From Humibacillus sp. DSM 29435 (GTDB lineage Bacteria > Actinomycetota > Actinomycetes > Actinomycetales > Dermatophilaceae): 64,000 nucleotides of DNA. The stretch lies in assembly GCF_001758225.1 (NCBI RefSeq), contig NZ_MAST01000012.1, positions 1 through 64,000 on the forward strand. Reading direction: 5' to 3'. Below are positions 35,284-38,860 of this stretch, piece after piece. Made by a program: the position numbers and the translations under genes. Position 1 is the stretch's first letter; each line of letters begins with the position of its first letter. The notes beneath the pieces are model-generated. The model worked only from the letters and a program-made list of their open reading frames with translations, ran no database searches and was not told the DNA's origin.

Positions 35284-35335
35284 GGGGTGGTGAAGGCTTT
35301 TGGCCCCCCGGCGGGCGAAAACCCTTCACTATCCC
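35284..35335. repeat. Long palindromic repeat, copy A (downstream of AbiEi-like gene)
   Basis: GTGAAGGCTTTTGGCCC (35290-35306) and GGGCGAAAACCCTTCAC (35313-35329) form a 17-bp stem with two mismatches, lengthened outward by G-C and G-T pairs. The right arm is identical to that of copy B at 36323-36372. The stop codon of the 35329-36270 gene falls on its edge. Confidence 0.75.
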
Positions 35336-36270
35336 CGTCTGACCGCGCAGTCCGAGCGTCTGCAGGGGTGAACATGTCCCTTCCATCCCCTTGACCTGAA
35401 GATCGTCTCGAGCTCGAGGGCGAACCCGCAGCGGCCACCGGCCACATCGGGCCAGAAGCCGCGCACCGTGAGGTAGGAATCGGCGGCGGCCTGACGGTCG
35501 CGCCGACCGTCCCGCTGCTGAGCCCGCCACCCGGCGTGAGCCCTTCGTCCGTCGATCTCCACGATGACCTTGATCTCGTCGTAGACGTTGTCGCGACGCG
35601 TGCCTCCTCGCGCGGCTGCTTGCCGACGCCCGCGGGGCAACGCGTGAGCGATCTCGACATCCCGGATGTATCGACGCTCCGCACTGCTCTCGGCACCTCC
35701 CTGCACATCGCCGATCACGTCGTAGAGCAGAGACCGCGACGTCTGGGTGGGACGGTGGTCAAGAGCCTGACGCAGGTTGCGGGCCGTGGTCAGACCGAGC
35801 TGGTCGGCCCTGGCGATCAGACCGACGGCGACGTCGAGCGGTTCGCCGTGGGCGAGGTCGAAGATCGTATGCTCCACCGTGGTGCGATGCGGCCAGGCCG
35901 TCTCGTGGGTGCGGTCGATCGCATGCTTGCTGCGTCGCACGACGACACCCCTGACGGGGCCAGGATTTCGAGAGGCACCCACGACGACCTCGACGGTGGG
36001 GCCCGGAGCGGGGGCCAGTCGCCAGAGGTACGCGGCGCTGGCTCGACACAGTGCCGACGGCGTGCCGATGTGGAGCAGCACCGCCAGCGCCCTCACCTGC
36101 CAGTCGTCTCGACCGGGAACGGTGAGATACACCCCGGGATGAACCCGCACCCACCTGCCCGAGTCGACCTTCCAGCGCACCGCTTTGTCACTCAGCCCGA
36201 AGGCAAGAGCCTGCGTGCGCGTGACGAGACCGAGCTGCCCGTCGATGCGAGCGGTAAGACGCCGGTCCAT
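35329..36270 (-). CDS. AbiEi-antitoxin-like winged-helix protein with DUF559/Vsr-like C-terminus
   Basis: 313 residues. N-terminal winged helix (LVTRTQALAFGLSDKAVRWKVDSGRWVRVHPGVYLTVPG), a middle block HRTTVEHTIFDLAHGEPLDVAVGLIARADQLGLTT, and a C-terminal nuclease-like segment KVIVEIDGRRAHAGWRAQQRDGRRDRQAAADSYLTVRGFW with Glu, Asp and basic residues as in Vsr/DUF559 folds. The last 15-20 residues run into a palindromic repeat, so the native C-terminus may have been altered. No toxin gene is adjacent; the family occurs as orphans. It is framed on both sides by near-identical long palindromes, unlike any other gene here. A relative lies at 776-1711. Confidence 0.75.
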   Translation of the reverse strand: MDRRLTARIDGQLGLVTRTQALAFGLSDKAVRWKVDSGRWVRVHPGVYLTVPGRDDWQVRALAVLLHIGTPSALCRASAAYLWRLAPAPGPTVEVVVGASRNPGPVRGVVVRRSKHAIDRTHETAWPHRTTVEHTIFDLAHGEPLDVAVGLIARADQLGLTTARNLRQALDHRPTQTSRSLLYDVIGDVQGGAESSAERRYIRDVEIAHALPRGRRQAAARGGTRRDNVYDEIKVIVEIDGRRAHAGWRAQQRDGRRDRQAAADSYLTVRGFWPDVAGGRCGFALELETIFRSRGWKGHVHPCRRSDCAVRRG

Positions 36271-36322
36271 GGCCCTATCGTGATCGCCGACGACCCGGAC
36301 GCGCCTGCCTCATCCACAGGCA

Positions 36323-36372
36323 GGGTGGTGAAGGGTTTTCGCCCGCCCAGGGGCGAAAACCCTTCACCACCC
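36323..36372. repeat. Long palindromic repeat, copy B (upstream of AbiEi-like gene)
   Basis: Perfect 22-bp stem: the arm 36323-36344 begins GGGTGGTGAAGGGTTTTC and its exact complement occupies 36351-36372, around a 6-base loop GCCCAG. It shares the core GTGAAGG-TTTT-GCCC with copy A at 35284-35335. It lies 52 bp upstream of the gene start, and 26 bp beyond the stop of the permuted ROK-like gene (36399). Confidence 0.85.
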
Positions 36373-36398: not shown

Positions 36399-37451
36399 TC
36401 ACGCGATGTCAGGGGCGAGACTGCAGCCGATCGCCGTGCCGAGCACGATCGCGACATCCGCGTCGGGCTGCTCGACCTGAGCACCGAGCAGAGCGGCAGC
36501 GCCGTCGTGGAGCACGGTCACCGTAACGCGCCCGTTCACCGTCCGCCCGATCGCGTCGGCGAGCCCAGCCCGGAGGTCTACCTCGCCCAGCGGTGCGTAC
36601 GGACCGAGCTGGCCTGCGTACGGCTGACCAGTCCTGTCGACGTACGTGGCGATGGCCAGCGCCACCTCGACCGGCCCGGGGGACGCTGCCCGGGCCACGG
36701 CGTGCGCGATGACGTCGATGACCGCTTGGGCTCCCACGCGACCGGGGGCCGGCAAAGGCCCCAGCGTTTCGACGTGTCGGCCGTGTGCGTCACACCGCAC
36801 CAGTGCGCGCTTGATGGCCGTGCCGCCACAGTCGAGCGCGACCCCGGATGCGTGCAGCAGGGATGCCGCTCCACGCAGCCCCAGCCCAGCGGCATCCGTC
36901 GCCCTCGTGAGACGAGCGTCGACACCCATCTGCTGCAGTCGTGCACCGGCCCGGTCGACGACGTGGGCACCGAGCATCCCCCGCACGACACCACCACCGA
37001 TGACGACCCTGCGCACCGACCGCCACCTGTCCCAGTACTCCGGCGGCCAGTCGGGCCTGGCGCGCCGGGCATCCTCGGGGCCCACGATGAGGGAGGCCAC
37101 CAGTGCAGCCAGTGCGTCGCCGAGCTCGTCGGCGACGGGCAGCGCTCTCGCGTCTCCGGCCACCACCAACGCGTCCAGCGCTGCCGGCCACACGGCCGCC
37201 GCCTCCATGAGGGCAGCCGAGACCGGAGCTCCGCCGGGCAACGGCGCGACCTTGAGGCCGTGCTCGATCAGCGCGGCTACGACTTCGGGCCGGGCAGCCA
37301 TCGAGCGGGCGATGCTCCAGGTGGCCAGCCAGTCTCGGGCCGCGGTGCCCGCCAGGTGCGCCGGCAACCCGGCGAGGTCGCCGAACACGGTGGGGTTGAG
37401 GCTCGGCGACCGCAGCAGCCGCACCGGGTTCGGGGGTCGGCGCAGCGGCAT
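36399..37451 (-). CDS. ROK-like (actin-fold sugar kinase-like) protein with circularly permuted domain order
   Basis: 350 residues. Residues 95-200 match the C-terminal half of ROK kinases: a GDARALPVADELGDALAALVASL helix, the adenosine motif VVIGGG (149-154), then LTRATDAAGLGLRGAASLL. Residues 205-345 match the N-terminal half: phosphate-1 DCGGTAIKRALV (207-218), catalytic-type Asp316 in VLHDGAAALLGA and phosphate-2 VLGTAIG (336-342). The order is thus reversed relative to glucokinase or Mlc. The ROK zinc motif CXCGXXGCXE is absent. The first 90 residues are helical and unassigned. The start lies 14 bp after glyS. Whether it phosphorylates a sugar is unknown. Confidence 0.72.
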   Translation of the reverse strand: MPLRRPPNPVRLLRSPSLNPTVFGDLAGLPAHLAGTAARDWLATWSIARSMAARPEVVAALIEHGLKVAPLPGGAPVSAALMEAAAVWPAALDALVVAGDARALPVADELGDALAALVASLIVGPEDARRARPDWPPEYWDRWRSVRRVVIGGGVVRGMLGAHVVDRAGARLQQMGVDARLTRATDAAGLGLRGAASLLHASGVALDCGGTAIKRALVRCDAHGRHVETLGPLPAPGRVGAQAVIDVIAHAVARAASPGPVEVALAIATYVDRTGQPYAGQLGPYAPLGEVDLRAGLADAIGRTVNGRVTVTVLHDGAAALLGAQVEQPDADVAIVLGTAIGCSLAPDIA

Positions 37452-37465
37452 CCTCAGGTCGCGGG

Positions 37466-38860
<1,395 letters not shown>

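Follow-up and report, generated by a model that had tools for sequence, protein, structure and literature searches.

The open reading frame at positions 36399-37451 (minus strand, stop codon included) of the window, that is, the whole 64,000-nucleotide stretch of DNA analysed here, encodes a 350-aa protein that very likely belongs to the ROK/hexokinase branch of the ASKHA (actin-like) superfamily as a naturally arisen circular permutant, and is probably a kinase; its fold is predicted and its phosphotransferase activity inferred. In normal ROK kinases, the motifs follow one another in the order PHOSPHATE 1, catalytic Asp, PHOSPHATE 2, ADENOSINE and C-terminal helix. In this protein, the order is ADENOSINE, C-terminal helix, PHOSPHATE 1, catalytic Asp316 and PHOSPHATE 2, all within one frame devoid of internal stop codons. 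The true start codon is uncertain, given that residues 1-13 are modelled with low confidence by AlphaFold2 (AF2); GTG codon 10 (V10), which aligns with the start of the 45% identical homologues, is an alternative start.

The N-terminal half (residues 1-200; 36852-37451, minus strand, as for all segments of this gene) corresponds to the canonical ROK C-terminal half (residues 141-302 of the glucokinase GlkA), as judged from the AF2 model of this half alone, VIA-align and hhalign. Conservation was assessed in an alignment of 36 rows, some of which duplicate one protein, and the positions referred to below as invariant are identical in all 36. The N-terminal half includes a family-specific Arg/Trp insert (residues 129-145; 37017-37067), in which R129, R132, W135, W140 and W143 are conserved in 32-36 rows and which sits just before the ADENOSINE strand. 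The ADENOSINE motif itself, VVIGGG (residues 149-154; 36990-37007), with invariant G153 and G154, is followed by the canonical C-terminal helix AGLGLRGAASLL (residues 188-199; 36855-36890; the helix motif AAGLGLRGAASLL spans residues 187-199), which is here joined to the canonical N-terminus. The C-terminal half (residues 201-350; 36402-36851) corresponds to the canonical ROK N-terminal half (residues 1-145), as supported by VIA-align, the profile match and hhalign. It carries the PHOSPHATE 1 motif DCGGTAIKRALV (residues 207-218; 36798-36833), with invariant D207 and G209 and with K214 in 35 rows, the catalytic-aspartate loop VLHDGAAALLGA (residues 313-324; 36480-36515), with invariant D316, and the PHOSPHATE 2 motif VLGTAIG (residues 336-342; 36426-36446), with invariant G338 and T339, just beyond which the protein ends.

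The permuted homology is apparent from the comparison of a profile of 18 family members with that of 11 canonical ROK/PPGK proteins (hhalign). When the two profiles were compared in order, only the C-terminal half of the family aligned, to the canonical N-terminal half, with a score of 92.5. Re-cutting the canonical profile after PHOSPHATE 2 yielded a score of 119.3 over 281 columns, and with a duplicated canonical profile the alignment crossed the copy boundary (312 columns, score 107.3). Compared half by half, the family C-half scored 99.8 against the canonical N-half and the family N-half scored 32.4 against the canonical C-half, whereas for the N-half none of 300 column shuffles exceeded 18.5 and the reversed profile gave 15.0; the uncrossed pairs scored 14.9 and 11.9. 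In the profile search against PDB, the best match of the family C-half was polyphosphate/ATP glucomannokinase (1woq; E 2.1e-6), and hexokinases and ManNAc kinases were matched as well, mostly in their N-terminal halves. For the family N-half alone, no significant sequence match was found in PDB, and its hhalign probability against the canonical C-half is only 48%, so that the identity of this half rests on the structure match described below and on the shuffle test.

These results bear on the possibility that the motifs arose by chance in a protein unrelated to sugar kinases. The absence of any Pfam, NCBIfam or PDB match in single-sequence searches with the protein speaks for this reading, but the profile matches to 1woq and hexokinases (2e-5 for the latter), the hhalign P value of about 3.5e-16 and the structure matches all but exclude it. 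An earlier note, made from the sequence alone, had claimed a permuted motif order in one uninterrupted frame. This claim held: the motifs it quoted are all present at the residues it gave. Chance is countered by the order in the homologues and by the N-half score relative to the shuffles.

The whole-chain AF2 model, built from 11 natural sequences, is a single compact chain (pLDDT 89.4, pTM 0.88). VIA-align matches its residues 200-349 to residues 1-145 of ROK kinases, with Z up to 12.6; on Streptomyces griseus GlkA (3vgk), residues 201-349 superimpose onto 2-142 (Z 11.4, 135 residues, 2.6 A). Predicted alone (pLDDT 85.7, pTM 0.83), residues 1-200 align to the C-terminal half of ROK kinases, the best match being 3r8e 144-290 (Z 11.0), and further to 1z05, an Mlc homologue (234-380, Z 9.7), GlkA (residues 8-191 onto 141-302, Z 9.0, 137 residues, 3.3 A) and human ManNAc kinase 2yhy (553-705, Z 8.6), in which the counterpart of the C-half is 406-554. 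All top 20 rows for the N-half are ROK-type sugar kinases or repressors. The ranges matched by the two halves are complementary and meet at a single point, 141/142 in GlkA and 553/554 in 2yhy, a hallmark of a complete fold that has been circularly permuted once. On tandem hexokinase I, residues 29-350 of the model align to 37-691 across the domain boundary with an rmsd of 31, because two copies are used; such boundary crossing is expected of a permuted query. The in-order Foldseek search with the full model, which should be read together with the half-model search, returned low TM-scores (0.20-0.36) because only one half can be superposed in order, and with the N-half model alone Foldseek gave no match at E <= 0.001. 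The earlier note had proposed as its own test that the N-terminal 200 residues should pack as the C-terminal ROK lobe, and the predicted structure passes it, with the 3r8e match as the best. Its suggestion that the permutation is tolerated since the lobes are adjacent held only in part, lobe adjacency being of secondary importance. The likelier reason is the position of the C-terminal helix, which canonical structures show embedded in the N-lobe (PMC2742894); this brings the old termini near each other, where they can readily be connected.

Alternatively, the protein could exist only as a domain-swapped dimer, each chain lending its N-half to complete the C-half of its partner. ROK kinases often are dimers, the new termini and the short linker could favour swapping, and our evidence comes from a monomer model only. 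However, the monomer prediction is already one compact chain with high pTM, and the N-lobe of canonical structures already accommodates the C-terminal helix (PMC2742894), which renders the swapped arrangement unlikely relative to a permuted monomer.

The permutant is not a singleton. We identified about 30 distinct homologues of about 300-400 aa, full-length or nearly so, in Actinomycetota, Chloroflexota and Clostridia, all with the permuted order and each with exactly one complement of each half and no duplicated segment. The genome search recovered proteins of 45-46% identity encoded beside glyS in two other genomes from the same family of organisms and divergent homologues in Serinicoccus. 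The members from Chloroflexota and Eubacteriales came from an alignment-based scan of genome contigs; the contig scan with the single protein as the query had produced no match, and it was the later, alignment-based one that detected the family. Full-length members are present in 14 of the 56 genomes from one Chloroflexota order. Elsewhere the family is rare, with members in two of 291 genomes from the class that includes the Eubacteriales member. In the Actinomycetota sample, the host genome alone had a member (1/396), a count that is a lower bound, since scoring was confined to a few top candidates from each genome. The phylogenetic tree gives good support to the Serinicoccus, the glyS-linked and the Clostridia groups, and only weak support to the deep forks. 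The dN/dS values between close members (0.19-0.51) indicate that the family is under selection yet evolves fairly fast.

The distribution of the family is also informative with respect to an accidental fusion of two half-genes, or an indel or assembly error reshuffling a normal ROK gene, that would have produced a non-functional hybrid. Permutants usually arise by tandem duplication followed by trimming of the ends, which makes an ancient fusion step likely, and one homologue, from genome G134, is frameshifted and contains an internal TAG. Against this reading stand the same order and complementary halves in about 30 distinct members across three phyla, the compact model and the invariant catalytic residues. 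A hybrid of this kind is thus very unlikely: fusion as a recent or non-functional event is refuted and is retained only as an evolutionary route. The remnant of two fused ROK genes, which the earlier note had named as a possible refutation to be sought in homologues, is likewise contradicted by them, each having a single complement of the two halves.

The G134 homologue (L004/L017; G134:C1:967259-968265) has its frameshift near residue 138, and might be either a decaying gene or the product of assembly errors; intact copies exist in other genomes of the family. Several further candidates were not counted as members. The G108 match (L015) was dropped because its open frame belongs to another gene region and it scores only marginally; the short G784 fragment (L055) contains a TGA, and L031 and L036 contain internal TGA codons. 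Matches at profile positions ~153-322 in other genomes correspond to ordinary ROK, PPGK or glucokinase genes with the normal order.

Fold and catalytic residues are ROK/ASKHA-like, the fold as predicted, but the definition of a ROK protein is not met. Measured against the ROK signatures listed in PMC5458393, the strictly conserved catalytic aspartate is present (D316 in HDG/NDG, 36/36 rows), and the predicted structure contains the two lobes that make up the ROK kinase fold. The DxGxT motif is not in the N-terminal region, DCGGT occupying residues 207-211, and many family members have DxGHS/T or DxGQT/S at the DxGGT position. The ExGH sugar-binding motif is absent from the equivalent segment (residues 8-45) and is conserved nowhere in the family alignment. 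The zinc motif CxCGxxGCx(E/D) is absent from the protein, as the earlier note had stated (no CxCGxxGC could be found), and some accepted ROK kinases also lack it (PMC5458393). The ROK/ASKHA linear order PHOSPHATE 1, PHOSPHATE 2, ADENOSINE is met neither in the protein nor in its homologues. The Pfam ROK model PF00480, which detects eight other genes in the host genome, including a separate canonical PPGK-type gene (L064), matches neither the permuted kinase nor its homologues. No Pfam family matches the protein at E <= 1, and there was no Pfam, NCBIfam or PHROGs family match to it; the homologues yielded only a few sub-threshold hits at chance level. With the definition unmet, we class the family as ROK-like and permuted, within the ASKHA superfamily; to call its members ROK proteins outright would be too strong a claim of membership.

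Among known systems, the closest is PPGK/PPGMK (polyphosphate/ATP gluco(manno)kinase, 1woq; ROK group B), which among solved structures gives the C-terminal half its best sequence match and is the type to which most of the best canonical matches in the relatives' genomes belong. Both families have DxGGTxIK, the catalytic Asp and GTxIG, and both are devoid of the zinc cysteines. By contrast, PPGK/PPGMK are proteins of about 250 aa with the canonical order and ELGH and without the Arg/Trp insert. The ROK glucokinase GlkA matches both lobes of the predicted fold, but identity over the aligned residues is low (23% and 18%), and, relative to GlkA, the permuted protein has the order swapped at 141/142 and neither ExGH nor the zinc motif. 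The tandem human hexokinases HK1 and HK2 share the ASKHA sugar kinase fold, and the query aligns across the boundary between their tandem units; however, they consist of two complete canonical units rather than one permuted unit.

In the proposed mechanism, the chain would begin where normal ROK kinases are just past PHOSPHATE 2 (about GlkA residue 141), proceed through the C-lobe, the ADENOSINE strand, the C-terminal helix and a short linker to the normal N-terminus with PHOSPHATE 1, and then pass through the connecting region and catalytic Asp316 to end at PHOSPHATE 2. The folded protein would have two lobes with the nucleotide in the cleft, where PHOSPHATE 1 (D207, T211, K214) and PHOSPHATE 2 (G338-T339) may hold the metal and phosphates, G153-G154 may hold the adenosine, and Asp316 may act as general base, activating a hydroxyl group on a small sugar-like acceptor. 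Motif order in the gene, conservation, permuted homology and predicted fold are shown; phosphotransferase activity is inferred from the conservation of the phosphate-, metal- and adenosine-binding positions together with the catalytic base, which makes an active phosphotransferase the most likely function, with the substrate unknown. Since the protein has the Arg/Trp insert and has lost ExGH, we infer that the enzyme is probably not a standard glucokinase and that its acceptor is unlikely to be plain glucose.

It remains possible that the fold is permuted as proposed and that the protein acts as a sensor or regulator, as the non-kinase ROK repressors do, or is a pseudokinase that binds a nucleotide or sugar without phosphorylating it. 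Consistent with this alternative, the ExGH and zinc motifs are absent, DxGHS or DxGQ replaces DxGGT in several lineages, the adjacent genes have housekeeping roles (glyS; ABC-F and nei; ligA and moeA), and dN/dS is moderate (0.2-0.5). However, the invariance of the PHOSPHATE 1 Asp, Asp316, the PHOSPHATE 2 Gly-Thr and the ADENOSINE glycines would be unexpected in a pseudokinase, and the protein has no DNA-binding domain. An active kinase thus remains the preferred reading.

Comparison of gene neighbourhoods across lineages, as a guide to function, revealed no common pathway and none pointing to a sugar pathway. The neighbours are glyS in the host lineage, the ABC-F and nei-type glycosylase genes, between which the kinase gene lies, in Serinicoccus, and ligA and moeA in Chloroflexota; the neighbour of one Clostridia member encodes a GFO/IDH/MocA oxidoreductase. 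In Chloroflexota (L115, L118, L119, L120, L121, L122), the kinase gene often directly follows a ligA-like gene and precedes a moeA-like one, most of these loci having gaps of 0-70 nt; the assignment of the neighbours as ligA-like (NAD-dependent DNA ligase) and moeA-like rests on their sequences rather than on a profile search. In Serinicoccus (L005, L009, L006), the kinase gene closely follows the ABC-F gene and overlaps the start of the nei/Fpg-type glycosylase gene by a few bases, suggesting translational coupling.

A bolder reading is that this is the first described natural circularly permuted lineage of ASKHA proteins (actin, Hsp70, sugar kinases), a catalytically active family spanning at least three phyla, with new termini beside PHOSPHATE 2 and an Arg/Trp insert conferring a new substrate or phosphate donor; taken jointly, these propositions are as likely to fail as to hold. 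Searches of the open-access literature for circular permutation among ROK, ASKHA, hexokinase or actin-like proteins returned no such case, which is weak evidence of novelty and does not exclude a description elsewhere; the earlier note, likewise, knew of no described ROK protein with this order. In PMC1079889, the phrase 'related by circular permutation' merely states a general rule by which folds are grouped. Circularly permuted GTPases of the YlqF/RsgA type exemplify the same kind of event, with rotated motifs and a preserved fold, and belong to the P-loop fold, which is unrelated to the permuted kinase. ASKHA includes actin, Hsp70 and hexokinase, for none of which did our literature search turn up a rotated member, and a natural permutant would imply that this duplicated fold can form without a fixed chain order. 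The family provides a naturally occurring case in which to ask whether the starting point of the chain matters for folding and hinge closure. It is unnamed in Pfam and NCBIfam, and in-order profile searches either miss its members or see half a match.

In the window, the gene for glycyl-tRNA synthetase, glyS (37466-38860, minus strand), lies upstream of the kinase gene on the same strand, 14 nt away, and glyS also adjoins the kinase gene in the two genomes with the 45% identical homologues. Directly downstream of the kinase gene is a strong hairpin with a 22-bp stem (36320-36369, minus strand; RNA fold -47.1 kcal/mol, z -8.0), likely the terminator of the glyS unit. The hairpin is a near-perfect 22-bp inverted repeat, and the core of one of its arms, GTGAAGGGTTTTC, occurs again exactly at 35317-35329, by the end of the neighbouring gene, so that it is perhaps a terminator of a repeated type. 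Relatives of the host include an Intrasporangiaceae MAG, Nostocoides and Serinicoccus, from which we infer that the host is an actinobacterium belonging to that family. The neighbouring gene itself (35329-36270, minus strand) encodes a protein whose N-terminal domain is of the AbiEi_4 antitoxin type (Pfam E 2e-10).
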